Source: Caldimicrobium sp. (lineage in GTDB: Bacteria; Desulfobacterota; Thermodesulfobacteria; Thermodesulfobacteriales; Thermodesulfobacteriaceae). From it: a DNA stretch of 60,426 bases. A program made the position numbers and the translations under genes. A model generated the notes under the pieces. The model was not told the origin of the DNA and made no database searches. It saw only the letters and a list, made by a program, of their open reading frames with translations. Location of the stretch: contig JANXCE010000011.1 in NCBI GenBank assembly GCA_025059715.1, positions 1-60,426 of the forward strand, read 5' to 3'. Positions within the stretch are counted from its first letter, which is position 1, and each line of letters starts with the position of its first letter. Shown in pieces: positions 3,228 to 60,426 of the stretch.

Positions 3228-3288
3228 GCTTTTAATTTATCTATTTGGTAGTAAAATTTTCTTTAAACTATTTGTTGAGGTGAAATAG

Positions 3289-6818: not shown

Positions 6819-6831
6819 GGCCCACTCCTTA

Positions 6832-7650: not shown

Positions 7651-7822
7651 CTTTGTAAATTACCTCCTCTATTAATCTTTAAATAGAGCAACCGTTAGTT
7701 CAAGCACTAAACTTAAGCCTACTATACCCACCAAGGCATTCAGGGGCGAAAAGATAATCTGAAAAAAAACCCCTTTTCTTCCTCCACAAAGACCTTTTTA
7801 CCCTCATTCATTTTACTTAAAC

Positions 7823-8929
7823 CTATTTGTCTCTTTTACCTTCGATAAATTCGATCACCATTTTACGAGCAACATGATCGGGAAACTGCTTGGGTGGGTG
7901 TTTCATTGTGTAAGCGGAGATTGAAATTAAACTCCCCCCAATACCTCTATCCTTTGCGAGTTTGGCACATCTAATAGCATCTATAGCGGATCCTGCGGAG
8001 TTAGGAGAATCTTCAACTTCGAGTCTTACCTCTACACTCATGGGCACACCACCAAAGTGCTCTCCCTCAATCCTTATGTAAGCAATCTTTTTGTCTTTCA
8101 GCCAAGGAACCCAATCTGAAGGTCCAATATGAATGTTTTCCCAGCCAATATCATAGGGAATCAAGGTGGAAACCGCCTCAGTCTTGGAGATCTTTTTAGT
8201 GGCAAGTCTTCCCCTTTCTAACATATTTAGAAAATCTGTATTCCCTCCAAAATTTAATTGATAAGTTCTCTTTATGGGTATACCTCTGTCCACAAAAAGT
8301 TGAATGAGCGACCTATGGAGGATTGTAGCCCCAAGCTGGGATTTAATATCATCTCCTACTGCGGGAATGCCTCTTTCCTCAAAACGTTTAGCCCATTGAG
8401 GATCTGACACTATGAAAGTGGGCATGGCATTCACAAAAGCAACTCCGGCGTGTAAACAGGCTTCCGCATAAAAGCGAGCAGACTCCTCTGCTCCCACAGG
8501 CACATAGCTTATTAGCACATCTGCCTTCACCTCTTTTAGATGGGCTACCACCTCTTCCAGCTCATCCTCTTTTTCTGGGGATATGACAAAGGTTTTTTCC
8601 TCTGGAAATTCCTTCATGTGCTTGGCCACTCCATCAAGCACTTTTCCTTTGCGCACCTTGACCCCCAGATAGGGAACATCTCTATAAAAAATTGTGGTGC
8701 AATTAGGTGGTGCAAAAATAGCCTCCGAGAGATCTTTACCTACCTTCCTTGCATCTACATCCCAGGCAGCCACAATATCAATATCTCCAGGTTTATATCC
8801 ACCTATATCTGGGAACATAAGCCCTTTGTGAGTATCCACACTTTTAGCCCTATAGTAAAAGATTCCCTGAACCAAAGAGCTAGCACAATTACCCACTCCC
8901 ACTATAGCAAGCCTTACTTTCTTAGACAT
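7823..8929 (-). CDS. ino1: Myo-inositol-1-phosphate synthase
   Basis: A 368-residue NAD-dependent enzyme that isomerises glucose-6-phosphate to inositol-1-phosphate. The nucleotide-binding loop IVGVGNCASSL lies at residues 9-19. The family motifs VNAMPTFIVSD, GDDIKSQLGATILHR, LNFGGNTDFLNM and DSPNSAGSAIDAIR are all visible. The sequence is of the shorter archaeal/actinobacterial type, not the eukaryotic one. In thermophiles the product feeds inositol phospholipids or the heat solute di-myo-inositol phosphate; no partner gene is present here, so the end product is open. It has its own promoter downstream of gyrA and an AGGGGG element before the ATG. Confidence 0.93.
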   Translation of the reverse strand: MSKKVRLAIVGVGNCASSLVQGIFYYRAKSVDTHKGLMFPDIGGYKPGDIDIVAAWDVDARKVGKDLSEAIFAPPNCTTIFYRDVPYLGVKVRKGKVLDGVAKHMKEFPEEKTFVISPEKEDELEEVVAHLKEVKADVLISYVPVGAEESARFYAEACLHAGVAFVNAMPTFIVSDPQWAKRFEERGIPAVGDDIKSQLGATILHRSLIQLFVDRGIPIKRTYQLNFGGNTDFLNMLERGRLATKKISKTEAVSTLIPYDIGWENIHIGPSDWVPWLKDKKIAYIRIEGEHFGGVPMSVEVRLEVEDSPNSAGSAIDAIRCAKLAKDRGIGGSLISISAYTMKHPPKQFPDHVARKMVIEFIEGKRDK

Positions 8930-8963
8930 CCTTAGTCTTTCCCCCTAAGAACTTTTTATCACT

Positions 8964-8991
8964 AAAATAACATAAATTTTTCTGCTGACAA
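8964..8991 (-). promoter_or_regulatory. Likely sigma-70 promoter of ino1
   Basis: On the minus strand TTGTCA (8991 to 8986) and TATTTT (8969 to 8964) are separated by 16 bases, about 35 bases ahead of the ino1 start. The element lies just beyond the gyrA stop codon, so ino1 can be transcribed independently of the upstream operon. Confidence 0.45.
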
Positions 8992-8997
8992 TTAATT

Positions 8998-11403
8998 TTA
9001 CTCCCTTTCTTTGGTAAATTCTACCTTAAGAAGCCCCGAAAGAGTCTCTCCTGGTAAAAGACCCATCAGTCTTACCCCTCTGGTGGTTCTTCCTGATTCT
9101 GGAACTTGATTTTCTTCTAAGCGGATTACCTTGCCCGAGGAAGTCATAAGAAGAATCTCCTCCCCCTTCTTTAAAACAAGTCCTCCGGTTAGATTTCCCG
9201 TTTTATCACTAAGACTATGAACAGTAATCCCTTTACCCCCTCTTCCCTGAATCCTGAATTCCGTAATCTTGGTTTTCTTCCCAAAACCCCTTTCAGTAAC
9301 TGTAAAAAGATAATCTCCATCATCGCTTTTCAAAATAGTCACTACTTCATCCCCTTCATTAAGCCTAATGCCTATAACTCCCTCCGCATTTCTACCCATA
9401 GCTCTTATCTCCTCTTCTCTAAAGTGAAGAACTTGCCCCTTTCGGGTAAGTACGAGAAGATGGTCGGACCCTTTAGTTAAAATACCCTTTATAAGACTAT
9501 CTCCCCGCTTAAGATTTATGATTGTTGTGCCGCTTCTACGAATCCCACTTAACTCCTCAAGAGAAAGCCTTTTAACAATCCCCTCCTTAGTGACTAAAAT
9601 CAAATACCCCTCCCTTCTAAAGGGAACTGCCGAAACCACCTCACCTTCAAGGCCTATTAGAAAATTTTTCAGATGGGTTCCCTTGGCCTGTTTTCCTGAA
9701 AGTGGCACCTGTTTTAGTTGAAGAGGATAGGCCTTCCCCTCCTTTGTAAGTAAGAGAATAACCTCTTGCGCTCCCGTCTCTAAGGCTACTCTAAATCTTT
9801 CCTCTCCAACAAAGAGAGAGACACCCTTTCCTCCCCTTTTCTGAGAGATAAATTGATCAAGAGGTATCTTTCTAAGATATCCCTCTTCACTCAGCACCAG
9901 GAGAACATCCTCTTGAGGCCTTTCCTCTTCTAATACCTCTACATCTCTCTCAAGAATAATAGTCTTCCTTGGATCTCCAAATCTTTCCTTTAGCTCTTTG
10001 AGTTCTTCTTCAATAACCGTCACCAGGGTAGGCTCATGGGTTAAGATCTTTTCATAGTAAGCAATAGCTCTTTTCAATTCTTCAAATTCAAGTAAAATTT
10101 TTTCCCGTTCAAGGGCAGTTAGTCTTTGCAGTCTAAGATTAAGGATTTCTTGAGCCTGAATATCTGAAAAGTTAAATCTCTCTATGAGGCGCTCTTTGGC
10201 AGTCTTTGGGGTATCGGAACTTTTAATTAACTCGATTATTTCATCGAGATTTTCTAAGGCCTTAAGAAAGCCCTCTAAGATGTGGGCTCTTTCACGGGCC
10301 TTTTTAAGATCATACTGGGTTCTTCTTATAACTACTGTTCTTCTCCAGTTCAAGAAGTGTTGAAGGATATCTCTAAGGGTTAACAGTTCCGGTCTTCCTT
10401 GAACCAAGGCTAAAAATATGATGCCAAAGGTGGTCTCAAGTGGGGTCATCTCAAAGAGCTTTTTGGCAATAGTATGGGGAGCCTGAGCCCACTCTTTCTT
10501 TAACTCCACCACCAGTCGAAGGCCCTCCCGATCCGATTCGTCTCTAATATCCGCTATCCCCTCAATTTTCTTATCTCTTATCAGCTCCGCAATCCTTTCT
10601 ACTACCTTAGCTTTGTTAACCTGATAGGGTATCTCAGTAAATACTAACTTAGTCTTATCTCTTTCCCTTTCCACACGATACTTGGCACGAATTTTTATAA
10701 GACCCTTTCCTGTTTCATAGGCCCTTTTTATTCCCTCACTTCCCACAATGACAGCTCCTGTAGGAAAATCTGGCCCTTTTATGTAGTTCAAAAGCTCTTC
10801 CTGTGGTAGTTCTGGATTTCTCAAAAGGGCAATAAGAGCCTCTATTACCTCCGAGAGATTATGAGGGGGGATATTAGTTGCCATCCCTACCGCAATACCT
10901 GCGGAGCCATTTATTAATAGATTTGGCACCTTGGAGGGTAACACCAGTGGCTCCCTTAAAGTATGGTCATAATTAGGCACAAACTCTACCGTTTCTTTCT
11001 CGAGATCCGCCAAAAGCTCGTGAGCAATTCTGGTAAGCCTAACCTCTGTATAACGCATAGCAGCAGGAGCATCCCCATCTACGGATCCAAAATTTCCCTG
11101 ACCATCAATTAGAGGATATCGCATAGTAAAATCTTGAGCCATGCGCACAATAGCTTCATAAACAGGAACATCCCCATGGGGATGATACTTACCAATTACT
11201 TCTCCTACAATTCTGGCACTCTTTTTAAAGGGCTTATTCCAATCATTGCCTGCCTCATACATTGCATAGAGAATACGCCTTTGCACAGGCTTTAGCCCAT
11301 CTCTTACATCGGGAAGGGCCCTCCCTACAATCACACTCATTGCATAATCGAGATAACTCTCTTTCAATTCCTCCTCTAAGGGCACAGTGATTATTTCACC
11401 CAT
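8998..11403 (-). CDS. gyrA: DNA gyrase subunit A
   Basis: This 801-residue type IIA topoisomerase subunit cuts and rejoins DNA. The catalytic tyrosine is Tyr118 in AAMRYTE. The N-terminal breakage domain has the usual [17 protein letters not shown] block. The C-terminal beta-pinwheel carries a GyrA-box-like QKRGGKG near residue 521 and a second GRGGKG blade near 720; the box marks GyrA rather than ParC. The quinolone pocket reads GDVPVYE (77-83): the E. coli Ser83 position is Val and Asp87 is Glu. gyrB is not in the window. plsC lies 10 bases upstream, in the same run of minus-strand genes. Confidence 0.95.
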
Positions 11404-34329: not shown

Positions 34330-34474
34330 TTATAATTCACCTCCTTACAAGGGTATTTATTTATAAATTAAGCCTAAATTTTAACATATACAACCCGGAT
34401 ATTCTTAAAATATAGCTACTCCCCTCTCTCCATAAGTTCAAAGTCTTTTTAGCATCTCACTAATCCCTTCTTCC

Positions 34475-35030
34475 ATCAAAGACTCAAAAATACTGCAAAG
34501 ATTTGAAGCAATCAAAGATGCATCCCAGAAAAAAGAAGTCGCCTTTAGACTATAGGTCATCGAATTTCACAACTCTTTTGGCACCAAAGCCACAGATTGA
34601 CCAAAGAGGAAATGCACAAAGAGGTGGCCACAGGGGGTAATAGAATTTATCCTGAGTTACAGGAGAGAACATCCTCGCATAGGCAAGGAAAAACTTTAGC
34701 CTTTGGTGGATAGATTTTGTAGGGAGAGGGAAATAGCTTTGGTAGCAGTATCTACGATTGGAAGGATTATAAAGTATTTGAAAGAGATAAAGTATTTGAA
34801 AGAGAGGGGGTAAGTTTGAGGAGAGGAAGTGAAGAAGCTTTAGTTTTTAAGGCTGACGGGAAGGTTTATTTAGAGGGAGAAGAAGAGGCAAATGATGTGG
34901 CTATTAGATTTGGATTTGCCTTTGAAATGCAGTCATTTATCGAGTAGCATTGGGAGGGACTTTTGGAAAAAAGTTTAAGGCTGTAGCTCCTTTTGAGATA
35001 AGGGGCGCGCAGATTGAGCTTGGGACTCAT
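34475..35030 (+). pseudogene. Decayed DDE transposase, N-terminal and middle part
   Basis: Reading the plus strand gives LQRFEAIKDASQKKEVAFRL, a stop, then VIEFHNSFGTKATD; the intact form of the first stretch is at the window edge. A helix-turn-helix-like VAVSTIGRIIKYLKE is at about 34,750. Near 34,900-35,030 comes a block shared with 36,280-36,390 that runs up to the second catalytic Asp region (NDVAIRFGFAF through GAQIELG, against VQTDNGSEF-type consensus). Stops and a 20-base duplication (AAAGTATTTGAAAGAGA) show decay. It ends just before the second Rpn gene's conserved flank. Confidence 0.65.
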
Positions 35031-35074
35031 ACATAACTCTTGCCTTCTCAACAGATTCCCCTTATACTTCCTCT

Positions 35075-36094
35075 ATGGCTGAACTTAAGGCCTATGATCT
35101 CTATGCCAAGGCAATCCTTAAAGACCCTGAAAATCTTAAGGCCTTCCTTCAAGAGTTTCTCCCAAAGGACCTCCTTCCCCACTTAGACCTCTCTCAGCTC
35201 TCTCTGGTCCCTGAAGAACAAATCTCCCTCCCCAAAGAAAAACGCTTCCTTCCTGACCTCATCGCCCAAGTCCCCCTCCTCGGAAAACCTCTTCACCTCT
35301 ACATCCTCCTCGAACACAAATCCTATCAAGATCTCTCAGCTTACGCTCAAATCTTAAATTACATCTCCGCTCTCTTCGAAAAAGCCCTCAAAGAAGGCTC
35401 AAAACCTATTCCCGTGCTTCCCTTCATCTTCTATCACGGAGAAAGGCCTTGGCTCTATCCCGTTGAGTTTGTGGAACTCTTTGAAATACCTCCTGAAATT
35501 AAGTCTTACTTTCTAAACTACAGGGTGTTACTGCTTGACTTGGTAAGCCTTAACCGAGAGGACCTTTTGAAAGGGATTGAGCTTTATAGTGTGGTGTATG
35601 CATATCTTTATTTGCTTAGAAATCTTGATAGACCACTTGAAGAGTTGTTGAGGGGGATAGTGAGGTTTGTAGAGGTGGTGGGGAAGTTAGGGGAGCGGGA
35701 GCGGTGGTATCTGGAGTGGTTTTTGTTGATAATTTCAAAGGAGAAGGGGCTTGACGAGGAGCAGGTGTTGATTAAATTAAGAGAAGTGGGGGGTGAGAGA
35801 GTGGAGTTTGAGTTGAAGACCTATTCAGAGAGGAAATATGAGTTGGGTTTTCAGCAGGGAATACAACAGGGAAGGCTTGAGGGGAGACTTGAAGGAAGGT
35901 TTGAGGGGCTATTAGAAGATGCTCAGGAGATGGTGCTTGAGGTGGTGGAGGTAAAGCTTGGGGAAGTGCCAAAAGGTATTGAGGAACAGATCAAGGCAGA
36001 AACTGACCGAGAGAAACTGAAAAAGCTTCACCGGGAGCTCATCCTTGCTTCAAATCCCTTGGAAATAATCCAACAATTTGGCTATTCAACTTAA
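35075..36094 (+). CDS. Rpn-family PD-(D/E)XK nuclease / transposase_31-like protein, copy 2
   Basis: A 339-residue protein that differs from the copy at 18,417 at about a dozen positions plus the repeat tract. Catalytic Asp61, Glu80 and Lys82 are kept. The repeat region reads FQQGIQQGRLEGRLEGRFEG, so it has fewer QQG units and more LEG units than copy 1. The two copies share about 45 bases upstream (CTCTTG-CTTCTCAACAGATT to the ATG) and diverge at the codons after QQFGY, which defines a unit of about 1.06 kb. The same C-rich to G-rich switch occurs in mid-gene. It lies between two parts of a decayed DDE transposase. Confidence 0.88.
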   Translation: MAELKAYDLYAKAILKDPENLKAFLQEFLPKDLLPHLDLSQLSLVPEEQISLPKEKRFLPDLIAQVPLLGKPLHLYILLEHKSYQDLSAYAQILNYISALFEKALKEGSKPIPVLPFIFYHGERPWLYPVEFVELFEIPPEIKSYFLNYRVLLLDLVSLNREDLLKGIELYSVVYAYLYLLRNLDRPLEELLRGIVRFVEVVGKLGERERWYLEWFLLIISKEKGLDEEQVLIKLREVGGERVEFELKTYSERKYELGFQQGIQQGRLEGRLEGRFEGLLEDAQEMVLEVVEVKLGEVPKGIEEQIKAETDREKLKKLHRELILASNPLEIIQQFGYST

Positions 36095-36119
36095 TAGGGA
36101 ATTTGAGCAATTTGTTCAA

Positions 36120-36590
36120 AAAAGGGGAGCGATCCAGAGAGATGAAGCGGTATAGAGATGGTAAGGAGGGGATTACAGCCTGGGGAGGTGATGCAGATGG
36201 ATGCAATTGTGTATTTTTGGGTGGGATTAGGAGGTATGTTTTGGTAGTGAAGGATGTGGCAAGTAGATATAGATACGCGTAGGAAGATTAGTTATTTATC
36301 GAGTAGGAGTGAAAGGGACTTTTGGAGTAAGTTTATGGCGGTAGCTTCTTTTTGAAATAAGGGGCGTGTAGACTGATAATGGAAGTGAGTTTTTAGGGGG
36401 ATTTGCGAAGGAGCTTGAGAAGGAGGGAGTTGGGTTTGGAAGAAGGTTTAACAGGATGTTTGATGACGAGTTTACTGAGTAAAGGGAGCTCATGAGGAAC
36501 TTGATATGGTATCATGTATAGAGGTTACATAGTGGCCCTGGGAATTTATTGCCTTTGGAGTGGATTTTCTATATAATTAACGAGAATTCC
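36120..36590 (+). pseudogene. Decayed DDE integrase-core transposase, catalytic part
   Basis: With frame changes the plus strand encodes VMQMDA with the first catalytic Asp (about 36,187-36,205), GIRRYVLVVKDVASRYRYA (about 36,220-36,280), GGFAKELEKEGV (about 36,397-36,432), FNRMFDDEFTE (about 36,448-36,480), then NLIWYHV and a HSGPGNLLPLEW tail. This block order is that of IS481-like/rve transposases. Multiple stops and frameshifts prevent expression. The middle part also occurs upstream of the Rpn gene, so at least two element copies, or a rearranged one, flank the nuclease. Confidence 0.7.
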
Positions 36591-36675
36591 CCAAAGTTTA
36601 AAATCCTATAGACTCTTATGTCTCTCTTGATGAGAACTTCAAGATTAATTAATATAATAACATCACTTATATAGG

Positions 36676-42897: not shown

Positions 42898-43046
42898 CTT
42901 TTTAAATTAAAGTCAAAGATAAAGGCAAAGCCATATCCTATCTCTGTTATAGCTTCTGATTCATTTCTAATTTTACACCCTGCGGAGATTAACTCAACCA
43001 AAGGCTTTTATTCAGTCATTCTTTGACCTATGAGAACGAATATAGC

Positions 43047-43074
43047 TTGTTCTTTCACAAAAGAATATTATACT
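43047..43074 (+). promoter_or_regulatory. Promoter of the coiled-coil membrane protein gene
   Basis: TTGTTC at 43047-43052 and TATACT at 43069-43074, spaced 16 bases, lie about 45 bases ahead of the ATG at 43120. AGGGGG just before the ATG would be the ribosome-binding site. Confidence 0.45.
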
Positions 43075-43119
43075 AATCAGTATGCACAAATTAGTTGAGA
43101 CTCAGATTAGGGGGACTGA

Positions 43120-43569
43120 ATGAATGGGTTAGAAGCCTTAACCCAGAGCGAATTAAGAGGATGGGTGGCCTCCATTGTGGAAGAGGTCATCAAGGAAAAG
43201 TTAGGAGAGTTTGTGATAAAGCATGAGCGGGAGGCAAGGGAGATCTCCTTAGTGGAGAGGCTGTTGAGAGTGGAGGAAGAGCTAAAGTTTTTGAGACAGT
43301 TGGAGGAGGAAAGGTTTAGTGCCTTGATGAAGGAGATGAATACCCGCTTTGAGGCCATGAATGCCCGTTTTGAAGCTCTACAAAAGGAAATGAATACCCG
43401 CTTTGAGGCTCTACAAAGGGAAATGGATACCCGCTTTGAAGCTCTACAAAAGGAAATGAATACCCGCTTTGAGGCCTTGGAGAGAAGATTTAACTTTCTC
43501 CAGTGGTTAATTGTAGGTGGCTTTTCCTTCTTGAGCCTTCTCTTGGTCCTAATAAGATTTGAATCCTGA
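43120..43569 (+). CDS. Coiled-coil protein with C-terminal membrane anchor
   Basis: A 149-residue protein. Residues 1-60 are helical and charged. Residues about 70-122 are a run of 11-residue repeats of the form MNTRFEALQKE, which predicts a long coiled coil. A single hydrophobic segment near 128-145 ends in LIRFES, so it is a tail-anchored or inner-membrane protein. Similar short coiled-coil proteins accompany many thermophile genomes; some resemble the bacterial CCDC90/DUF1640 group, but I cannot assign it. The ATG is preceded by AGGGGG. It stands alone between the photolyase and hemerythrin genes. Confidence 0.8.
   Translation: MNGLEALTQSELRGWVASIVEEVIKEKLGEFVIKHEREAREISLVERLLRVEEELKFLRQLEEERFSALMKEMNTRFEAMNARFEALQKEMNTRFEALQREMDTRFEALQKEMNTRFEALERRFNFLQWLIVGGFSFLSLLLVLIRFES
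43331..43480 (+). repeat. 33-base tandem repeats inside the coiled-coil gene
   Basis: Units of 33 bases around AATACCCGCTTTGA-GCTCTACAAA recur about four times with few changes, encoding MNTRFEALQKE-like hendecads. An incomplete unit of seven residues precedes them. The low divergence at nucleotide level suggests recent in-frame duplication. Confidence 0.85.
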
Positions 43570-43916
43570 AGTTTCGTCATTTTATCTGGGCTTATAGGTG
43601 GTTACTTTATAGCATAGTAAGTGCAGCATAGTTCTTAATCTTTTACGACTTGGTTATTGAAGATTTCTCTTAAAGAGGTTGGAGCCAGTGAGAGCTATTT
43701 TTTGTAGGGAGGGGGTAAAAAGTGGTTGAGGTAGATAAGTTACAGCCTCCTTTCCGCCTTTTTTCTCATAATAAATCAGAGATTTTAAATGAAGGAACGA
43801 TATGTCTTTCATTTAAATTTTGTCTTTCCCTTAGATTTTTAGTGGTGTAATTTACCCCTTGACTTTTTCGTGCTTAAAATTATCATAAATTTCATCAAAA
43901 AATAAGGAGGAGTCCT
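43570..43916 (+). promoter_or_regulatory. Intergenic stretch with the hemerythrin promoter
   Basis: Most of these about 350 bases hold nothing I recognise. Near the right end TTGACT (43859-43864) and TATCAT (43881-43886), spaced 16 bases, form a plausible sigma-70 promoter. AAGGAGGAG at about 43,904-43,912 is a strong ribosome-binding site for the hemerythrin. Confidence 0.5.
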
Positions 43917-49441: not shown

Positions 49442-49789
49442 ATGACCAAGGTAAAGTATGGACTTAAAGAGAAGAGAAGGGAAGCCCTTTTAGCAAACCT
49501 TGAAGAACTTAAAAAGAAACTTTCTCTCTATAAACCCAAAAAAGTCCTTCTCTTTGGATCACTTGCCAGAGATCAGGTTCATTCCCGGAGCGATCTTGAC
49601 CTGTTAATTATTAAAAAGGAAGTCCCCAAGAGGTTTCTTGACAGGTTAGAGGAAGTCTACGCCCTGTTGTCCCCAGCCATAGATACCGATATCTTAGTCT
49701 ATACCCCCGAAGAAATTGAAAAACTCAAGGAAAAAAATCCCCTCATCAAGAGAGTTCTTAAAGAGGGTTTAGTGATCTATGAAGAATAG
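49442..49789 (+). CDS. MNT-type nucleotidyltransferase (antitoxin-like)
   Basis: A minimal nucleotidyltransferase of 115 residues. The G-S-x10-D-x-D signature lies in LLFGSLARDQVHSRSDLDLLII (Gly39, Ser40, Asp51, Asp53). A third acidic residue, in DTDILVYTPEEI, completes the metal triad. MNT proteins paired with HEPN proteins form toxin-antitoxin modules in which MNT can AMPylate the HEPN partner. It overlaps the HEPN gene by 11 bases. The pair sits alone between ribBA and thiE. Confidence 0.9.
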   Translation: MTKVKYGLKEKRREALLANLEELKKKLSLYKPKKVLLFGSLARDQVHSRSDLDLLIIKKEVPKRFLDRLEEVYALLSPAIDTDILVYTPEEIEKLKEKNPLIKRVLKEGLVIYEE

Positions 49790-50189
49790 TTCTAAGGAAA
49801 TAGCCCTAAAGTGGTTAAAGCAGGCAGAATTTGACTTAAAAGATGCCAAAAAGGCCTTCGAATGGCAGAGTTATAATCTTTGCTGTTTTCTTGCTCAACA
49901 GGCAGTAGAGAAGGCTTTAAAAGCCCTTTTATATTATGTTGGGGCAGAAGAAATATGGGGTCAATCAGCAGGTATACTTCTCAAAGAGGCTACTAAATAT
50001 TATCCTGAATTAGAAAGCCTTTTGCCTCAAGCTAAATCCCTTGATAAATACTACATACCCACGAGGTATCCAGATGCCTTGCCCGATGAAATAGTTCCAT
50101 CTGAGGCCTATGATAGTTCTGATGGAGAAAGTGCCCTTTCTAAAGCGGAAAGAATTCTCAGTAAAGTGAGGAGTTTAATAATAAACTAA
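49779..50189 (+). CDS. HEPN-domain protein, MNT partner
   Basis: A 136-residue helical protein with a typical HEPN opening (ALKWLKQAEFDLKDAKKAFEWQSYNLCCFLAQQAVEKALKALL) and the late LDKYYIPTRYPDALPDE block. The usual RNase motif R-x4-6-H is absent; indeed the protein contains no histidine. It is therefore of the minimal archaeal-type HEPN group, whose members may bind and not cleave RNA. It overlaps the MNT gene, and thiE follows 1 base after the stop, so thiE may be read through from this promoter. Confidence 0.88.
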   Translation: MKNSSKEIALKWLKQAEFDLKDAKKAFEWQSYNLCCFLAQQAVEKALKALLYYVGAEEIWGQSAGILLKEATKYYPELESLLPQAKSLDKYYIPTRYPDALPDEIVPSEAYDSSDGESALSKAERILSKVRSLIIN

Positions 50190-51755: not shown

Positions 51756-52895
51756 TTAAAAGGCAAGATTAACTCTCATACCGAAGATATGCCCACTTCT
51801 CTCCTTGGGATCTGAGGGGTCACTTGGCTTTAATCTGTCCTTCATGAACTGCCAGTCGAGTGTGAAATGGGTAGCCAGTTTCTTTTCCACTTCATATATA
51901 GGAATAGAGAGGTAGGCTTCGAGGACCTTGGTGTGTTTCAATTCTTCGTTTTTCGAGGGTGCCTTAAGGTAGCTGTAGCCTAAACCTAAAACCGGTCTTC
52001 TATTAAGAAGAGAGAAGGGTTTTATCTCAAACCCCAGGGAGCACATGCTTTTATAGTCAACCTCAGCTTTATCGCTCTGAAATCCAGCCCTGAGAAAAAA
52101 ACCGAGTCTCTCTTTAATTAGATCTTGATCTATTGATATGCCCCAGCCCTTGAGGGCTTTTTTCTTTTTCTTATGCCAATCGGGAAATCTCTTATTAGTC
52201 GTAAAGCCATAGAGGCGATAATTACCCTCCCCTAAGGATGTCTCGCTTCTCACACCCACCTGAAGAGCATAATAGTTGTAAGTATCATCTGTCGGGTAAT
52301 CGGTTTTACTTTGCATACCAAGGGCCCTTAAATGGAAAGGTCCCTTTTCGAACTCAAGGGCTATTCCATAATCGTAGCTTACCAAATTAGCCAGAGGATT
52401 ATTCACAAAGGCTTCATTCATAAACTGGGTAAGCTCATCATTAGCAAAGCGATTGTCGTCTATAAAAGCGGTGGCATCAATAATACCTAAGGTAGCTTTC
52501 AGAGTTGAGTTCCCTGGCAGAGTAAAACTCCTTGCATACCAAAGCTCAAGTAGGTGATCCCTTGCCCTTCCATTAATATTATGTAAATCATCCCGTAAAT
52601 CATCTGCATTAGGTGAAAGACTAAAGGGATTTATCTTTTTTAAGCCATTCTCTTTGGCAAAACTTGCCCTAAGGGCAAACTCATCTACCTGAGTAGGCTT
52701 AAAACTTAAGGTAGCATCCACTACCGCTGAACCTCTATCTTTGTCCTTGAAATCTCCCCTTTTCTTCTGCAGCCATTGATGCACCCAAGTTAGATTAGCC
52801 TCAAGAGAGAGTTTTTCACCTAACTCCAAGGCCTCTACTTTAAAGGGAACTAATAACAGCCCAATGGTGAAAAGCTTAACTAATATCCCTCTCAT
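51756..52895 (-). CDS. OprB-like outer-membrane porin
   Basis: A 379-residue protein with a signal peptide (about 1-22, ending VEA) and many alternating amphipathic strands. It ends in a terminal phenylalanine (MRVNLAF), as outer-membrane beta barrels do. The segment AFIDDNRFANDELTQFMNEAFVNNP (about 158-182) matches the FANDE-TQF-N-AFVNNP pattern of OprB-type porins. The usual substrates are sugars, but position directly downstream of feoAB suggests that it may pass iron-related solutes. AAGGAGG precedes the ATG, and a TATAAT -10 box lies at 52926-52931, so it has its own promoter. Confidence 0.82.
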   Translation of the reverse strand: MRGILVKLFTIGLLLVPFKVEALELGEKLSLEANLTWVHQWLQKKRGDFKDKDRGSAVVDATLSFKPTQVDEFALRASFAKENGLKKINPFSLSPNADDLRDDLHNINGRARDHLLELWYARSFTLPGNSTLKATLGIIDATAFIDDNRFANDELTQFMNEAFVNNPLANLVSYDYGIALEFEKGPFHLRALGMQSKTDYPTDDTYNYYALQVGVRSETSLGEGNYRLYGFTTNKRFPDWHKKKKKALKGWGISIDQDLIKERLGFFLRAGFQSDKAEVDYKSMCSLGFEIKPFSLLNRRPVLGLGYSYLKAPSKNEELKHTKVLEAYLSIPIYEVEKKLATHFTLDWQFMKDRLKPSDPSDPKERSGHIFGMRVNLAF

Positions 52896-52961: not shown

Positions 52962-55115
52962 CTAAAATCCTAAAATTCTTCCCACCTGATAGAATAAAAG
53001 GGACACAAGCCAAGCAACAAGAGTATGGATTAAAATAGCCTGAAGGTAGAGTTTAAAGGAGCCAAGTTCCGCTCTAACAGCAATTCCATAGACAAAGCAA
53101 GGCCAGTAGAGGAGCACAAAGATCATGAAGCTTAGGGCAGAAAGGGGAGTAAAATGTTCCTGAAGTTTGACGATCAGTCCTTTTGCCTCCTCTGGCTCTT
53201 CTACCTGCAGGGTAGCAATTCCCATGGTGGATATAAGATTATAAACCGCTTCTTTGGTCTTCGCCCCAAAATTAAAGACAATTCCCTTTAGATCTTCTAT
53301 TAGGTTTAGAGTCTCCTCTTGGGCTCGTTCCTCTTCACTGGCATAGATTTGAGCCATAGTGGAGACCACCACTTCCTTTGCCAAGGAGCCTGCTAAGAGA
53401 CTGGCGGTGCTGGCCCAATCTCCAAAACCAAGGGGTTTAAAGATCGGAGCAAGTAGGGCTCCTGTCTTCCCAAGATAAGACTCTTCTGGATTATTGGGCT
53501 TCCAAGGTAGATTTAATAAAACCCAGATAACTACATTTATAGCCAAAATCCAAGTTCCAGCTTTAATTACGAAGTGTCTCAACTTCATCCATGTGTGCAC
53601 CCTAAGATCTCTAAAAGTAGGTAGCCGATAAGGAGGAAGTTCCATGATAAAGGGAGAACTCTTGCCCCTGTAGATCAATTTGTGGAGAAATATCCCTAAT
53701 AGTATGGCTGTTCCAATCCCCAGGACATATAAAGAGAAAAGTATTGTTCCAGAGGCCTCAACAAAAAAGGCACTCACAAAGACTACATACACAGGAAGCC
53801 TTGCCCCACAGGACATAAAGGGCACAAGAAAAATAGTTAGTTTTCGTTCCCTTTCCTGTTCAAGGACCCTGGTAGCATACACCGAGGGCACATTACAGCC
53901 AAACCCTAAAAGCATAGGAATAAAGGACTTACCCTGAACCCCAAAGCTTCTCATCAGTCGGTCCATAAGAAAGGCAGCTCTTGCCATATAACCTGAACTC
54001 TCTAGGAAGGTTATTAACAACATAATCACCCCTATTACCGGAAGAAAAGAAAATACTATTCCCACACCTGCTAAGATACCGTGTAGAAGAAGGGAATTTA
54101 GCCACTCTGGAGCTTCCAGAAATTCGAGACCCACATTCGCCCATTTCATAATTGGACCATTTATGGTTTCATCTACAAAATCCACATAGGGATTAGCTAC
54201 ATCAAAGGCTACCTTAAAAAGAAGCCACATCATTAACAAAAAAATAGGAATACCAAGATAGCGATTTAACAGAACTCTATCTACCCTTTCGGTAAAGGTA
54301 ATCTTTCTTATTTCGGGCTTATGTAAAACCTGTCTTACAACTCCCGTAGCTAAACCATATCTTAGATCTGTAAGATAACTCTCAATATCCTCTCCATGCA
54401 CCTTTTCAATGTGTTGAAGGTATTTCTTAATCTCCTCCGGATTGAATTTAAGGTTAAGCCTTGAGATAAGTTCCTGATCTCCCTCAAGAAGCTTAATAAG
54501 TAGGCCCTTGTATAGTAAAGAAGCTTCTAATTGAGGATTAAGAGTTAACAATTGAAGTCGGACCCTGTCTATTGCTTCCTCCAAATCCTCTCCATAGGAA
54601 AGCCTATTTGGAATTTTATTCTGAAGATAAACCTCCACTATAGCGCTCTTTAACTCCTCAATCCCCTCACCCCTTGTAGCTATGGTGGGTATTGCCTTTA
54701 CTCCTAAAAGCCTCTCCAGTAAAGGTATATCTATTTGGTATCCAAGTTTTTGGGCTTCATCAAAAAGGTTTAGGGCTAATACTAAGGGTATTTCCAGCTC
54801 CATGAGCTGGATCACAAAATATAGATTCCTCTCCAGATTGGTTGAATCAACCACACAAAGAATTACATCTGGTCTCTCTGTAAAGAGATAGTCCCGGGCA
54901 ATTTTTTCTTCTAAGGAAAAGGGGGAAAGACTATAGGCCCCAGGAAGATCTACAAACGCCAGCGTGTAATCTCCAACCTTCAAAGTGGCTTCCTTTTTTT
55001 CTACCGTTACGCCAGGCCAGTTTCCCACCTGAAGCCTCGCCTTGGCAAGGGCATTAATGAGAGTAGACTTACCTGTATTGGGATTTCCTACCACCGCAAT
55101 CTTTATCTCTCTCAT
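52962..55115 (-). CDS. feoB: Ferrous iron transporter FeoB
   Basis: A 717-residue inner-membrane protein with an N-terminal G domain. G1 is GNPNTGKST (10-18), the G2 region is NWPGVTVEKKE, G3 is DLPGAYSLSPFS and G4 is NLFDE. A helical GDI domain follows, then paired Gate regions from about residue 285, with FIPMLLGFGCNVPSV and its core cysteine and later conserved Gate residues (SLLAGSLAKEVVV). It imports Fe(II) into the cytoplasm and is normally induced under iron limitation or anoxia. It overlaps feoA by 4 bases. Confidence 0.97.
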   Translation of the reverse strand: MREIKIAVVGNPNTGKSTLINALAKARLQVGNWPGVTVEKKEATLKVGDYTLAFVDLPGAYSLSPFSLEEKIARDYLFTERPDVILCVVDSTNLERNLYFVIQLMELEIPLVLALNLFDEAQKLGYQIDIPLLERLLGVKAIPTIATRGEGIEELKSAIVEVYLQNKIPNRLSYGEDLEEAIDRVRLQLLTLNPQLEASLLYKGLLIKLLEGDQELISRLNLKFNPEEIKKYLQHIEKVHGEDIESYLTDLRYGLATGVVRQVLHKPEIRKITFTERVDRVLLNRYLGIPIFLLMMWLLFKVAFDVANPYVDFVDETINGPIMKWANVGLEFLEAPEWLNSLLLHGILAGVGIVFSFLPVIGVIMLLITFLESSGYMARAAFLMDRLMRSFGVQGKSFIPMLLGFGCNVPSVYATRVLEQERERKLTIFLVPFMSCGARLPVYVVFVSAFFVEASGTILFSLYVLGIGTAILLGIFLHKLIYRGKSSPFIMELPPYRLPTFRDLRVHTWMKLRHFVIKAGTWILAINVVIWVLLNLPWKPNNPEESYLGKTGALLAPIFKPLGFGDWASTASLLAGSLAKEVVVSTMAQIYASEEERAQEETLNLIEDLKGIVFNFGAKTKEAVYNLISTMGIATLQVEEPEEAKGLIVKLQEHFTPLSALSFMIFVLLYWPCFVYGIAVRAELGSFKLYLQAILIHTLVAWLVSLLFYQVGRILGF

Positions 55116-55339
55116 TTTAACACCTCCACTTCAATTCCCTCTGCCTCTTCCATTCGAAGGGATAAATGATAACCCTTGATGTATATCTCCACTGGATCCC
55201 CAAGGGGTGCCACTCTCTCTACTAACACCTCTTCACCGGGTAATATCCCCATCTCTTGAAATCTCTTTTTTAAAGCCCCTTTAAGATTAAGTGCCACGAT
55301 TTTCCCTCTCTCCCCCTTTTTTAAATCCGATAACTTCAT
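55112..55339 (-). CDS. feoA: Ferrous iron transport protein FeoA
   Basis: An SH3-like protein of 75 residues that modulates FeoB. MKLSDLKKGERGKIVAL, KRFQEMGILPGEEV and YIKGYHLSLRMEEAEGIEV cover the whole family pattern. The start follows GGAGGGAG. It is coupled to feoB by a 4-base overlap. No feoC is present. A candidate Fur-binding sequence lies about 60-80 bases upstream. Confidence 0.95.
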   Translation of the reverse strand: MKLSDLKKGERGKIVALNLKGALKKRFQEMGILPGEEVLVERVAPLGDPVEIYIKGYHLSLRMEEAEGIEVEVLK

Positions 55340-55400
55340 CTCCCTCCTCCTATAAAGGTATTCAATTTAAACTTAGCTTTAAAACAACTTTATTTTAACT

Positions 55401-55419
55401 AATTTTGAATTTCATTTTC
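55401..55419 (-). promoter_or_regulatory. Candidate Fur box upstream of feoA
   Basis: On the minus strand GAAAATGAAATTCAAAATT agrees with the 19-base consensus GATAATGATAATCATTATC at 13 positions by my count. It includes the ATGA-ATTCA half-sites and lies between the HlyD gene and feoA, where a feo promoter is expected. The region is AT-rich, so chance similarity is possible. Confidence 0.45.
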
Positions 55420-55459
55420 ATTTAAATAGCATAAAAAAATAGAAAGTCAAGGTCTCTCT

Positions 55460-56641
55460 TTAGTTTTTGTTCTTTATTTTTCCTTTTAGAGCGATTTTCT
55501 CTCCCTCTCTTAAGCCTTCTTTAACTTCTATCCACCCACTCTTTCGTTCTCCAAGACTTACCTTAACTACTCCTCTACCCTTTACCTCAACAAGATTTTC
55601 GCCCTTTAGGGCATGTTCTGGGATGGCTAAAACCTCTCTTTCACCTACTACGATGTAGCCCTCCACAGTTGATTCAACAGGCACTTCAAGGGGCTCTAAA
55701 GGTAAAACTTTCACTACTATTAGCCTTTTACCTCTTTCTACTTCCTTTTTTATTTCCTTGATCTTACCAGTGCTCATTTTCTCAGGATAGGATTCAAATT
55801 TAAGATATACCCTTTGTCCCTCTTTTATTTGCGAAAGATGCTCCTCATCCACCTCAAGTAATATTTCCTTTTCTTTAGTTCCAATGCTTAAAAGCTTATT
55901 TTCTCCTGAGAGGGGATTCACATAATCACCATTCTCTACATATATGCCATAGATTACTCCACTAAAAGGTGCTCTAACTTGATAGCGTTTAAGTTCTGCA
56001 AGAAGGAATGCTCTTCTTTCCTTTAACATCTCTTTTTCCTTTTCAAGGGTTACCTTGGCATCATAGATCTGTTTTTTGATTTTCTCATAGGTGTGCCTAT
56101 AAATTGCCCATCGCCTCTTTGTTTCCTCAAGATCTTCCTTAGAGATCAAACCCTCTTCATAAAGTTTCTCCCTTCTTTTTAATTTCTCCTCTTCAGTCTT
56201 CATATTAATTTGAGCTACTTCCAATTCTTTCTTTAAACTCTCTAAAAAATCTGAATTCTCACTCAATTTAATCTCTATTAAAGATAGTTTTGTCTCTATT
56301 TCTCTTATTTCATGAGTTTTTGCACCGGGATCAAGGCTTAAAAGGACCTCACCTGCCCTAACAAAATCTCCCTCTTTTACATAAATCCTATTAACTACTC
56401 CCGATACTTCAGCTCTTAAAATGACATAATTCTTTGGCTTTACATACCCCATTGCATAAATACTCTTGGTGAAAACCTTCTTCTTGACCTCGACGTATTC
56501 CTTATCATCCTTTACTGTCACTCCCTTTAATACTAAAAAGACTAAGGTAAAGACAAGAGTTAAAAATATGATAAGGGATAAAAAAACTTTCCTTTTGAAA
56601 TTTAGTGAAGCAATGGTGTTTATAAATCCATAAGGACTCAT
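55460..56641 (-). CDS. HlyD/MacA-type periplasmic adaptor protein
   Basis: A 393-residue membrane-fusion protein with one N-terminal membrane segment (about 18-38). A lipoyl-like half (VILRAEVSGVVNRIYVKEGDFVRAGEVLLSLD) comes next, then a long coiled-coil hairpin (about 100-215), and the second lipoyl half (YQVRAPFSGVIYGIYVENGDYV). A beta-barrel with KEGQRVYLKFESYPEKMSTGKI follows. It should link an inner-membrane pump to an outer-membrane channel or present substrate to the permease. Its ATG overlaps the permease stop (ATGA), so the two work together. No outer-membrane TolC gene is visible. Confidence 0.88.
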   Translation of the reverse strand: MSPYGFINTIASLNFKRKVFLSLIIFLTLVFTLVFLVLKGVTVKDDKEYVEVKKKVFTKSIYAMGYVKPKNYVILRAEVSGVVNRIYVKEGDFVRAGEVLLSLDPGAKTHEIREIETKLSLIEIKLSENSDFLESLKKELEVAQINMKTEEEKLKRREKLYEEGLISKEDLEETKRRWAIYRHTYEKIKKQIYDAKVTLEKEKEMLKERRAFLLAELKRYQVRAPFSGVIYGIYVENGDYVNPLSGENKLLSIGTKEKEILLEVDEEHLSQIKEGQRVYLKFESYPEKMSTGKIKEIKKEVERGKRLIVVKVLPLEPLEVPVESTVEGYIVVGEREVLAIPEHALKGENLVEVKGRGVVKVSLGERKSGWIEVKEGLREGEKIALKGKIKNKN

Positions 56642-57888
56642 TGATTCCTAAAAATGTCCACAGGATTTACTCTGCTTGCCTTATAAGCAGGATAGATACT
56701 TGCAAGAAGACAAAAAATATAAGAAAAAAGCAGCCCTTCTATATAGTATTTAAAGGACTTATCCATCAAAAAACCCTTTGCTCTAATGGTTCCCTCAATC
56801 CTATAGTCAAGGGTCTCTAAATACCCTATTAGGAAAAAACTAAGGATAAAACCTATTAAACTTCCTACTAAGGCAATAAAAAAACCAATACTCAAAAAAA
56901 TTCCTATGATATCACTTCTTTTATATCCCATAGCCATAAGAATGGCTATCTCCTTTCTCTTTTCCATCACGGTCATCATTATGATATTATAGATACCAAA
57001 GGCAGAAACCATAAGAATTATGATTACAATCATTAGAGTCATGGTGTTTTGGGTCTTTAGTATGCGAAGAAAGTTTTTGTATGCATCCTGCCAGGGCTCA
57101 ATAGTAAACTTTTCCCCTAAGCGTGCCTCAAAAAATGAGGCTAAGTCCTTTGCCTTATAAGGATCTTTTACCCTAATTATTATCAGGTTAACCTCATCTC
57201 CTCGATTCAAGAGAGTTTCCAGAGCCTCTCTTGAGAGTATAACCCGAGTAGAGTCAATACTGGTTATTCCCGAATCGAAAAAACCCAACACTCTAAAGAG
57301 TCTACCTTCCTGCTCGGGTAGATAGAGCACCACCTTTTGTCCTACCTGTTCTATCCCTAACTCTTTTGCCAACACTACTCCGATAAAGAGCCCATCTTTG
57401 TTATCCCTGATATCCAAAAGGTTCCCTGAGCTCAGAAATTGTTCTAAGGAAGAAGCTCTTTTTTCCTCTTCTGGCTCTATTCCTATTAGAGATACTGCCT
57501 TTTCTTTGCCACCTAATTTTATAATTCCCTTAGCTTCAAGCCTGGGAGCAATCCCTACGACTTCCCTTTCACCTTCAAGTGCAACTTTTATCTCCCTCCA
57601 GGTTACGATTCTATTCTTCTCTTTAGGCTTGTATCCCTTCACTTCCAGCACTTTCTCTCCTTCATCATCCTGAATACTCATCTCTTTAGGAAAGCTCTCC
57701 CGTGGCTTAATCACTATATGGGGTTCAAGCTCAATAACCTGCCTAATAAAATACTTTTCAAAGCCCCTCATCATAGAGGAACTTACTATTAAGGCAGTAA
57801 CTCCGAGGACAACTCCCAAAATAGCTAAAATTATGTGTTTTTTTCTTCGTTTTAAAAGGGCAAGAGATATGAATAAAATCTGCTGCAT
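56638..57888 (-). CDS. MacB/FtsX-type ABC permease (no ATPase visible)
   Basis: A 416-residue protein with the MacB/LolC layout. It has one N-terminal membrane helix (about 16-36), a large periplasmic domain (about 40-270, including the GIAPRLEAKGII segment), and three C-terminal helices (about 280-305, 325-350, 380-402). An EKRKEIAILMAMGYKRSDI coupling helix motif and the ending YPAYKASRVNPVDIFRN are present. Such permeases need an ABC ATPase, which is not in this window, so it lies beyond the edge or elsewhere. It lies 3 bases after the CobN-like gene, which strongly suggests joint function. Confidence 0.88.
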   Translation of the reverse strand: MQQILFISLALLKRRKKHIILAILGVVLGVTALIVSSSMMRGFEKYFIRQVIELEPHIVIKPRESFPKEMSIQDDEGEKVLEVKGYKPKEKNRIVTWREIKVALEGEREVVGIAPRLEAKGIIKLGGKEKAVSLIGIEPEEEKRASSLEQFLSSGNLLDIRDNKDGLFIGVVLAKELGIEQVGQKVVLYLPEQEGRLFRVLGFFDSGITSIDSTRVILSREALETLLNRGDEVNLIIIRVKDPYKAKDLASFFEARLGEKFTIEPWQDAYKNFLRILKTQNTMTLMIVIIILMVSAFGIYNIIMMTVMEKRKEIAILMAMGYKRSDIIGIFLSIGFFIALVGSLIGFILSFFLIGYLETLDYRIEGTIRAKGFLMDKSFKYYIEGLLFSYIFCLLASIYPAYKASRVNPVDIFRNQ

Positions 57889-57891
57889 ATC

Positions 57892-60426
57892 CTATATATA
57901 ATATCTTTTTCGTAATGAGCTTATAAAACCTAAGGTATACCAGAAGAACATAAGCAGGATCATATAAAAATTAATCCACGCAGGAAGTGTGCTCTCAGAT
58001 TTGCCCTGAAGAGTCACTCTCTCTAAAAGATTTCCCCTAAGAAGATTAGGTGCTAAATTAGGTTCTTTCCCCTTATTTGAAGGGGACTCCAAACCATAAC
58101 CACTAATGGCTAATCCTTGCTCAATTCTTTTTTTCAGTTCCTTAAAAGCCAGGGGATTTGTTTTAAACCATTCTTTAAGACCCAAGTTATATTTATCCTG
58201 AAGGATTATTTCTTTAAATTCTTGCCAGATGTAATCTTTAACAACCTGAGGGACTATTACTTGCCATCCATAAAGATTATTCACAGTATCAAGAACCTGA
58301 CTTACCCCACTTGCGCCCTCTTTCATCATTTCCTTGAGATAATTCGGATTTAAGTATCTACTTCTGACCTCACTTACCAGAAAATCCTCAGCCTTTTGCA
58401 TCCTGGCAGTGCTCCTTAAGTTCGCAATCAACACCTCTGGCTTTCTTCCTGAGATAACCTCCACTGCCAAACTCAAACCTCCTAAATACTGAAAGGGATC
58501 ATCTGTAGATAACATTCCATAGAGATTGGAACTTCTTGATAAAATTACTGCCCTAACTTCCCTTAAATTTGCCTCATAGAGTCCCTCTATCCTCTGGGAA
58601 TAGGTCTCTTCGTCATAGACAAAACTCATGCGATGGAGATAAACCTGGGTTAATTCAGTTCTATTCCTGGTTCTAAAAACTGCCTCATCTAATCCCGTGC
58701 CATAAACTCCTGCTTCATTTGAGAAAACCCTTACGGTTGAGAGGTTTTTTGCTTTCTCCGGATCCATTCCTTTTTTCACCAAATCCTTGATTAATGTATT
58801 AGTATTTTCGGCTACATAATTATCCCTTTCCGTAAGCTCTGCAACCATTCTCACCCCCTTGTTGATAAGAGCCATTAGATTAGGAAAGTGATCCCGATAG
58901 AGCCCCGTTGCACTTACTACTACATCAATTCTTGGTCTACCCAGCTCTTCCCTGGGAATAATTTCTAATTCCCAAACTCTTCCAAATTGATCCCATTTTG
59001 GTTTAACCCCTAATAGGTAAAAAATCTGAGCCTCTATCACCCCCTGATGTCTCATAGTTTCTGTAGACCATAAACTAAAAGCTACTTTCCTGGGATACTC
59101 ACCATGCTTTTTGAGATAGTCATCCAACCATTCTTTAGTCATCTCCACTGCTGTATCCCAGGCTACCTTTGTAGGCACCCTTGTGGGGTCAAAACCATAG
59201 AGATTTCTGCCTGTGGGTAAAGACTCTGGGACCCTTATAGGATCACCTCCATAGGAAGTCCTTATGTATCCACCTTCAAGAGCCCTAAAGAAGGAATCCA
59301 ACTCTACTTGTGCCTTAAAGCTACTAAAGAGTTTCTTTATTCCTTCACAGGTATCAAAATCTGTAGCTTCTGCGAAAACACACTCATGCACAGCCTCAAA
59401 AGCCCTGGATTTCTTAATTTTCTCAATGGGCTGACTTAAAAAATCCTCATATTTCACCTGCTCCCACCTTTTAATCCACTCCTTACCGAGGATCTGCAAG
59501 ATGGTCAAAATTAGATGCTCCTTTTCCTTGTCTTTTCCAAAGGTATGTAAGCCTAACGGGATGTTCTGGCTGGCTATGTCATGAATATGGGAATGAAGCT
59601 TTAATGAAAATTCTTCAAAATTTTGTAATATCTGCTTTTTATCCCTAAAGCCTATGTCTTGAGCTAACTTGCTCTTTAGGGATTTTTCTGCAATCTTTTC
59701 CCTTAACTTTTGTTTAATTCTCCCCTCTGCTGAAGTCTCACTGTGAAGCAACTGATGGATCTCCTCTAAGTCACCATAGGTTCCTGCTGGGGCAAAGGCA
59801 GGGGTTTGATGGGATATAATTAGTGCTCTGCCGCGTCTCTTGGCGTTAATTGCCTCACCAATATTGTCTACTATATAGGGATAAATGACGGGAATTTCGC
59901 CCAAGGTTAAATAGGGAAAATCCCACCTATCAAGAGCTCTCTCTTTGCCTGGAGTCCACTCCTGGGTGCCATGGGTCCCAAAATGCACTAAAACATCAAA
60001 ATTTCTCTGTAAATAAAGATAAAAGGCTAAATAATAATGAGATGGGGGAACCTTAGTGCTATGATAGAGCTCTCTTTTAACTTCATAGTCTTTCCCACGG
60101 GGGGCCAGGGGGAAGAGGGAAAAATTATTTAGCTTCACCACAGGCACAGGGAAACAGCCATCCCTTTGAAAGGGATCATTCTCAGGCTTTCCCCAATATC
60201 TCTCTATGTCTTCTCTTATGGACTGGGGGATTTCCTGATACCACCTTAGATATTCCTCAAATCTCAGACATTGCAACTCTATGCCCTCTGGTTTTTTACC
60301 ATAATAGAATCTCAAAGCTGAATACATCAATTTCTGAAGAGTTTCCTCCTCTAAGGTATCTACTTGATAGCCTCGGTTTTTAGCCTCTTTGAGCAAAAGC
60401 TCCAAGCTTCTTATCACATTAAGATT
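57892..60426 (-). CDS. CobN-like chelatase large subunit with C-terminal membrane anchor (5' end beyond window)
   Basis: About 844 residues are visible; the frame is open to the window edge, and the family is usually about 1,200-1,400 residues, so the N-terminus is missing. Matches to CobN/BchH large subunits include LVHFGTHGTQEWTPGKE, LTLGEIPVIYPYIVDNIGEA, RRGRALIISHQTPAF, WSTETMRHQGVIEAQIFYLLGV, RNLYGFDPTRVP and SNEAGVYGTGLDEAV. The protein ends in a single membrane helix (INFYMILLMFFWYTLGF) and a basic tail, which soluble cobaltochelatase subunits lack. It may insert or remove metal from tetrapyrroles at the membrane, as shown for the CobN-like heme dechelatase HmuS. Confidence 0.88.
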   Translation of the reverse strand, partial: NLNVIRSLELLLKEAKNRGYQVDTLEEETLQKLMYSALRFYYGKKPEGIELQCLRFEEYLRWYQEIPQSIREDIERYWGKPENDPFQRDGCFPVPVVKLNNFSLFPLAPRGKDYEVKRELYHSTKVPPSHYYLAFYLYLQRNFDVLVHFGTHGTQEWTPGKERALDRWDFPYLTLGEIPVIYPYIVDNIGEAINAKRRGRALIISHQTPAFAPAGTYGDLEEIHQLLHSETSAEGRIKQKLREKIAEKSLKSKLAQDIGFRDKKQILQNFEEFSLKLHSHIHDIASQNIPLGLHTFGKDKEKEHLILTILQILGKEWIKRWEQVKYEDFLSQPIEKIKKSRAFEAVHECVFAEATDFDTCEGIKKLFSSFKAQVELDSFFRALEGGYIRTSYGGDPIRVPESLPTGRNLYGFDPTRVPTKVAWDTAVEMTKEWLDDYLKKHGEYPRKVAFSLWSTETMRHQGVIEAQIFYLLGVKPKWDQFGRVWELEIIPREELGRPRIDVVVSATGLYRDHFPNLMALINKGVRMVAELTERDNYVAENTNTLIKDLVKKGMDPEKAKNLSTVRVFSNEAGVYGTGLDEAVFRTRNRTELTQVYLHRMSFVYDEETYSQRIEGLYEANLREVRAVILSRSSNLYGMLSTDDPFQYLGGLSLAVEVISGRKPEVLIANLRSTARMQKAEDFLVSEVRSRYLNPNYLKEMMKEGASGVSQVLDTVNNLYGWQVIVPQVVKDYIWQEFKEIILQDKYNLGLKEWFKTNPLAFKELKKRIEQGLAISGYGLESPSNKGKEPNLAPNLLRGNLLERVTLQGKSESTLPAWINFYMILLMFFWYTLGFISSLRKRYYI

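Follow-up and report, generated by a model that had tools for sequence, protein, structure and literature searches.

A CobN-like chelatase-family protein with a C-terminal anchor, encoded beside a putative MacAB-like pump and feoAB in Caldimicrobium

Introduction

What might an anchored relative of the CobN chelatases be doing beside the genes for an efflux pump and for Fe(II) uptake? This arrangement lies at the end of contig JANXCE010000011.1 of Caldimicrobium sp. (assembly GCA_025059715.1), whose 60,426 nucleotides constitute the window analysed here. The window is contig C2 of an assembly (G000) of 80 contigs and 1.84 Mb, and it terminates at position 60426. On the minus strand, proceeding inwards from the contig end, an open reading frame (ORF) for a CobN-like protein is followed by genes for a permease and an adaptor, and then, after 120 base pairs (bp), by feoA, feoB and a gene for a porin (Table 1). 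We consider it a plausible reading, somewhat short of an even chance, that the CobN-like protein is a periplasmic dechelatase of the HmuS/BtuS kind that frees Fe(II) for FeoAB, and that a MacAB-like pump expels the metal-free ring.

Removal of Fe(II) from heme by HmuS depends on NADH and was first demonstrated in 2025; according to the authors of that work, it is not known what becomes of the toxic protoporphyrin (PMC12583661). In B. fragilis, the use of heme iron requires FeoAB for iron released outside the cytoplasm, and the periplasmic CobN-like proteins BtuS1/2 are involved (PMC6460266). In E. coli, protoporphyrin is expelled by MacAB-TolC (PMC4263509), and MacB is known to take its cargo from the periplasm (PMC5985334).

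Results

Placement and anchoring of the CobN-like protein

The part of the CobN-like protein that is in view matches the CobN/Mg-chelatase family alone (Table 1). Among solved structures it scores best with HmuS (394.6 bits), followed by CobN (324.4 bits) and ChlH (263.5 bits). Fold comparison yields Z values of 36-42 for all three and does not tell them apart. When 43 sequences were placed in a maximum-likelihood tree, the protein clustered at 100/100 support with 12 anchored CobN-like sequences of beta-, gamma- and alphaproteobacteria. This proteobacterial group, an archaeal group, a corrinoid-linked group (T. lovleyi and a paralog on contig C3 of the same genome) and HmuS make up an anchored superclade that is separate from true CobN and BchH. 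A long-branched Marinobacter CobN is also placed on the anchored side of the tree, although this placement is unsure.

The only strongly hydrophobic stretch of the part in view is a C-terminal segment followed by RKR, and residues 816-843 form one helix in an AlphaFold2 model (mean predicted local distance difference test score, pLDDT, of 77.4). By the positive-inside rule, the chelatase body is predicted to be located outside the cytoplasm.

HmuS proper, true CobN and BchH/ChlH were each rejected as identities. Forcing the protein together with HmuS lowers the log-likelihood (lnL) by 41.67 (approximately unbiased test, p-AU 0.0003), and this topology test, an Asp/Gln pair in the active site and the absence of a methionine-rich insertion exclude it from HmuS proper. 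True cobaltochelatase CobN forms a distinct clade, and none of the CobN references carries a C-terminal transmembrane helix; the window sequence, which is incomplete at its N-terminus, scores below every NCBIfam CobN cut-off. BchH/ChlH magnesium chelatase likewise forms a distinct clade, and no chlorophyll genes are found nearby in the window.

Grouping with true CobN had been named by a previous sequence-only reading of this DNA as the outcome that would speak against it, and the tree does not place the protein there. The parallel with HmuS drawn in that reading survives in part. The protein is anchored, lies outside the CobN and BchH clades, has HmuS as its nearest solved structure and is encoded next to feoAB, but by its clade and the two features just named it is not an HmuS. 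As judged from sequence, the view stands that it probably functions most like HmuS without being one, with a corrinoid substrate left as an open alternative because of the CobN-like Asp/Gln pair.

The CobN-like gene runs off the end of the contig, and its start codon and any upstream genes lie beyond that point. Homologs extend roughly 390-470 residues N-terminal to the first aligned residue, and therefore roughly that number of residues is missing. When this genome and that of a second species of the genus (G003) were searched with the first 395 residues of a Thiorhodospira homolog, the only matches were the C3 paralog and split-CobN genes, and thus the rest of the N-terminus seems to be absent from both assemblies.

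The junction with the permease-adaptor pair

The stop codon of the CobN-like ORF (57892-57894) is separated by only 3 bp from the permease start at 57888, and the permease and adaptor genes overlap by 4 bp (56638-56641), as do feoA and feoB. The small gap and the overlap make it likely that the CobN-like, permease and adaptor genes form one transcript. The sequence-only reading had described this layout, with feoAB and a porin following on the same strand, and every gene was found where it had been placed; family matches support the MacB/DevC-type permease, the adaptor, FeoA, FeoB and the OprB-like porin.

The permease is 47% and the adaptor about 44% identical to a paralogous pair on contig C11, which is part of an adaptor-permease-ATPase operon present across the genus without CobN. 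The order of the window pair is reversed relative to this operon, and no ATPase is in view. Permease residues 301-320 are identical at 20/20 positions to those of the C11 permease and of the permease from another genome (G005), versus 47-52% identity overall and 35-55% in the neighbouring blocks. By analogy with the MacB family architecture, this segment is predicted to be the cytoplasmic loop that contacts the ATPase. Because it is identical despite the 47% overall identity, the window and C11 permeases may share one ATPase or rely on two that are nearly identical. A TolC-type (OEP) protein is encoded on contig C55, unlinked to the window and beside another adaptor-ATPase-permease set.

Recurrence in a second species

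The same junction is found in G003, where contig C20 carries the genes for the porin, FeoB, FeoA, adaptor and permease and then the last 23 codons of the CobN-like gene before the contig ends. A chimeric contig end is rejected as an explanation, because G003 has the same gene junctions and its contig C14 spans the identity step described below. In the syntenic stretch to the left (43.9-49.46 kb), DNA identity between the window and G003 is 74%, and around the C11 operon the two genomes are 68-73% identical. From 49.46 to about 52.7 kb identity is 92-97%, and the segment from feoA through the end of the CobN-like gene forms one block of 93-97%, whereas feoB within the tract is only 72.7% identical. 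Because the identity of the block exceeds that of the syntenic background (72-74%), feoA, the adaptor, the permease and the end of the CobN-like gene probably moved together. We interpret the whole as a tract exchanged not long ago, with feoB either substituted afterwards through recombination or retained as the native copy. One end of the tract is marked by the abrupt identity step at 49463, from 74% to more than 92%, which lies beside a nucleotidyltransferase/HEPN gene pair (49442-50189).

Two further genomes of the comparison (G001 and G005) carry feoAB and the porin together without the CobN-permease-adaptor trio upstream, and a third (G006) carries feoAB, likewise without the trio. The sequence-only reading had held that finding the permease-adaptor pair conserved without the CobN gene would count against it. 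This is true of the paralogous pair, which is found with its own ATPase throughout the genus, but the orthologous pair in G003 retains the end of the CobN-like gene.

An FbpABC-like ferric transporter (G000:C27 314-3027 and G003:C15 1-2628) also has 96% DNA identity between the two species, with flanks of 73-81%, and is located at contig ends in both. Perhaps it belongs to the same transferred iron island as the window tract, and it possibly adjoins the CobN side. The ATPase near the end of C27 (C15 in G003) was considered as the missing pump ATPase and rejected, as it belongs to this transporter.

Related loci elsewhere

Flanking DNA was compared for 74 related CobN-like loci. ExbB-like and DUF2149 genes are present in 63 of them, and relatives of the window permease or adaptor are present in none. 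FeoB is encoded within 10 kb at only two, in Thauera sp. 28, where feoAB adjoins a TonB-linked CobN-like cluster, and in Notoacmeibacter. The closest full-length relative found (G231, 47% identity) begins with an anchor-like N-terminal helix, MKKKAYLRTPWLAAGLAVFIAVAAVLFGVV, and its gene order is ExbB-ExbD-TonB, TonB receptor, CobN-like gene, ExbB, DUF2149. Among the other loci, three from methanogenic archaea (L087, L088 and L103) encode very large anchored CobN-like proteins of 1746-1819 amino acids with ExbB-like and DUF2149 genes. In methanogenic archaea one would not expect a TonB-receptor-bearing outer membrane, and therefore these helpers must have another role there.

Table 1. Features of the window at the CobN-permease-adaptor-feo locus
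Feature	Coordinates	Strand	Evidence
CobN/HmuS-superfamily protein	57892..60426	-	PF02514, 758.9 bits over residues 2-768 of the 844 amino acids in view; N-terminus missing at contig end
HFGTHG motif, residues 148-153; second His corresponds to HmuS His-538	59968..59985	-	Alignment with HmuS, CobN and BchH
LSTDDPFQYLGG, residues 639-650; HmuS counterpart LSLDHxxEFMGG	58477..58512	-	Alignment: His-1209 to Asp, Glu-1212 to Gln
C-terminal transmembrane helix, residues 818-836, then RKR	57919..57975	-	Hydropathy; predicted helix 816-843
FtsX/MacB/LolCE-type ABC permease, 416 amino acids	56638..57888	-	PF12704 (MacB_PCD) and PF02687 (FtsX); solved relatives LolF, LolE, MacB
Permease segment 301-320 (NIIMMTVMEKRKEIAILMAM), putative cytoplasmic ATPase-coupling loop	56929..56988	-	Position within permease
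HlyD/RND_mfp-type periplasmic adaptor, 393 amino acids, N-terminal membrane helix	55460..56641	-	HlyD_3; TIGR01730, 135.6 bits (cut-off 94.9); solved relatives EmrA, MacA
AT-rich spacer, 120 bp, upstream of feoA	55340..55459	-	Best Fur-box-like site 13/19 at 55401-55419
feoA	55112..55339	-	PF04023; 96% DNA identity to G003
feoB, Fe(II) transporter	52962..55115	-	TIGR00437, 616.9 bits, above cut-off; 72.7% DNA identity to G003
OprB-like porin	51756..52895	-	PF04966, 3.7e-6; adjoins feoAB also in G001 and G005

Discussion

A possible mechanism

From an anchored chelatase-family protein lying beside a pump and feo genes, we infer a series of steps. The protein, held in the inner membrane and facing the periplasm, would take the metal, in all likelihood Fe(II), out of a tetrapyrrole that has been imported. 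FeoAB, whose genes lie just downstream, would then bring the freed Fe(II) across the inner membrane to the cytoplasm. Together, the permease and adaptor would form a mechanotransmission pump of the MacAB/DevBC-like type, driven by a LolD/MacB-type ATPase that is encoded elsewhere and is probably that of C11 or a close copy. Exiting through a TolC-type channel, the pump would expel the metal-free ring from the periplasm.

Several observations weigh against this proposal, chief among them the CobN-like residues, a possibly independent feo promoter, an upstream side that lies beyond the contig and a narrow distribution. The HFGTHG motif retains the catalytic His-538 of HmuS, but in place of the second axial residue, His-1209, and of Glu-1212 it has Asp and Gln, the pair that most true CobN proteins carry. 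The CobN-permease junction is known from only two related genomes. No TonB receptor, ExbB/DUF2149 or ATPase gene is in view within the window, whose upstream side is truncated, and the single DUF2149 gene of the genome is located on C3. The permease obtains its best scores with LolCE models and has LolF and LolE as its nearest solved relatives, and the role of LolCE is lipoprotein release. The spacer upstream of feoA may hold its own promoter, and elsewhere in the genus feoAB is retained with neither CobN nor the pump alongside; thus Feo may be a neighbour rather than a partner. The Fur-box-like match in this spacer was rejected as evidence, since about 12% of shuffles reach the same score and it is not above chance.

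Comparison with known systems

HmuS of Bacteroidota (hmuYRSTUV; PDB 9d26 and 9p4s) resembles the window protein in being an anchored extracytoplasmic CobN-superfamily protein with the HFGTHG motif, and its published model has it working with Feo. The window protein differs in its Asp/Gln pair, in its separate clade and in the region of domain IV that holds the methionine-rich insertion of HmuS. This region has 67 residues and no Met, whereas in two HmuS proteins it spans 137-242 residues and contains 7-31 Met; the insertion characteristic of HmuS was not found. Its closest relatives have Pro aligned with the HmuS heme ligand Met-79 and mostly lack His-254, and its own corresponding region lies beyond the contig end. 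Compared with the six-gene hmu operon, no HmuY, T, U or V is in view and no ExbB or DUF2149 gene lies downstream, although the upstream side continues past the contig.

BtuS1 and BtuS2 of B. fragilis, reportedly the third CobN-related type of Rodionov 2003, are by description similarly exported, membrane-attached CobN-like proteins tied to FeoAB-dependent use of heme iron, but no pump genes are described with them. The proteobacterial loci with TonB receptor, CobN, ExbB and DUF2149 genes contain the closest sequences (38-47% identity, same clade), one subset of which shares the motif DDPFQYLGG. Unlike the window, they have ExbB and DUF2149 after CobN, never a permease-adaptor pair of the window type, and they are rarely near Feo. 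The exporters MacAB-TolC, DevBCA and PvdRT share the MacB_PCD and FtsX permease with its membrane fusion protein (MFP) adaptor, but in the window the ATPase is neither fused nor adjacent, the permease is nearest to LolF/LolE and TolC is outside the operon. MFP adaptors accompany tripartite exporters rather than LolCDE.

Alternative explanations

The permease-adaptor pair could be a neighbour with no relation to the CobN-like gene, having arisen as a duplicate of the genus-wide exporter that serves another cargo such as a lipoprotein, a siderophore or a drug. We judge this to be rather unlikely: the paralogous operon without CobN, the lack of the pair at all 74 CobN loci and the LolCE-like permease would fit such an origin, but the spacing and overlap favour a single transcript, the reshuffled gene order and omitted ATPase do not suggest a whole-operon copy, and the junction is preserved in two species.

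It is unlikely, but only slightly more so, that the same architecture serves a corrinoid. In that case, imported cobamides would be stripped of their cobalt, or processed in another way, by the anchored protein, and the corrin would be the cargo of the pump. The active site speaks for this, as the same Asp and Gln are present in the C3 paralog, and the C3-type clade is linked to corrinoids by CbiMNQO and CbiZ neighbours. A cobalamin riboswitch is present at the G006 cluster and three are present in the T. lovleyi locus, but the window has none, and none was found when six loci of relatives with the same residue pair (DD..Q) were checked. Moreover, the window protein falls outside the C3/T. lovleyi clade and its neighbour is FeoAB rather than a cobalt transporter. 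The residue code itself is unproven, since the pair varies among related loci, with 29 carrying DD..Q (including a few archaeal loci outside the window clade) and 36 carrying DH..E. BchH retains His at the HmuS His-1209 position. Across the anchored proteobacterial CobN-like proteins (L035-L108) the two residues change together, which is a possible specificity switch between porphyrin and corrin.

The C3 cluster (L004, G000:C3:12001-32000, at 65-10844) encodes CbiM, CbiQ, CbiO, a TonB receptor, CbiZ, a fused DUF2162-ExbB, DUF2149 and the anchored CobN paralog. The latter is 35% identical to the window protein; unlike the window locus, however, the cluster has corrinoid and cobalt neighbours, is under riboswitch control in relatives, belongs to a different clade and includes neither pump nor Feo. 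The sequence-only statement that no other cobalamin genes are in view is correct for the contig, but the genome carries this second anchored CobN on C3. The CbiZ amidohydrolase of C3 starts with a signal-peptide-like stretch, and if it is extracytoplasmic, the breakdown of corrinoids would take place in the periplasm, with the cobalt then taken up again.

Scavenging of zinc or another non-iron metal is improbable. The precedent is the Zur-regulated PA1922-PA1925 genes of P. aeruginosa (TonB receptor, CobN-like and ExbD-like), which are strongly induced under zinc starvation (PMC4542158) and look like a member of the proteobacterial TonB-linked loci. Several relatives (L063, L065, L078 and L091) have a CobW/COG0523 gene no more than 10 kb away, but these carry DH..E, unlike the window protein, and the adjacency of FeoAB also counts against this reading. 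Metal insertion by a cobalto- or magnesium-chelatase subunit with AAA+ partners is very improbable, because, despite CobN-like residues and a ChlI/ChlD-like pair on contig C18, the protein lies outside the CobN and BchH clades, its body is predicted to be out of reach of cytoplasmic AAA+ partners, and the C18 pair belongs to a separate TonB/ABC locus, the G003 counterpart of which includes a split CobN of its own.

Other features of the genome

The C18 locus (L296, G000:C18:14001-27290) has its ChlI-like and ChlD-like AAA+ genes at 5079-7715, between an ABC importer and ExbB-ExbD-TonB, with no CobN. Where the same locus type occurs in G003 (contig C49) and in G001, CobN is present but divided between two ORFs, about 800 and 490 amino acids long; the C18 locus has apparently lost this gene. 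Elsewhere in the window, positions 34400-36630 and 43041-43582 comprise sequence with dozens of partial copies across G003, and the ORF at 35075-36094 encodes a Transposase_31 (YhgA-like) protein.

Implications

All parts of this locus come from known families, and their combination does not occur at any of the 74 related loci. As far as our search terms reach, none of the papers searched joins a dechelatase with MacB. More tentatively than the mechanism itself, and with a probability well below even, we suggest that this is an operon uniting a periplasmic metal-stripping chelatase with its own exporter for the metal-free ring, built around an active site that has Asp/Gln rather than the His/Glu of HmuS. 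The locus isolates the question of whether the residue opposite the catalytic His, which is His in HmuS and BchH and Asp in most CobN and in the window protein, determines the choice between porphyrin and corrin. A dechelatase-like gene that is apparently co-operonic with a MacAB-type pump, and located beside FeoAB, would offer a concrete and testable answer regarding the fate of protoporphyrin outside Bacteroidota. If the proposal is true, the pump would provide the missing means of disposing of the tetrapyrrole that remains after anaerobic harvest of heme iron.

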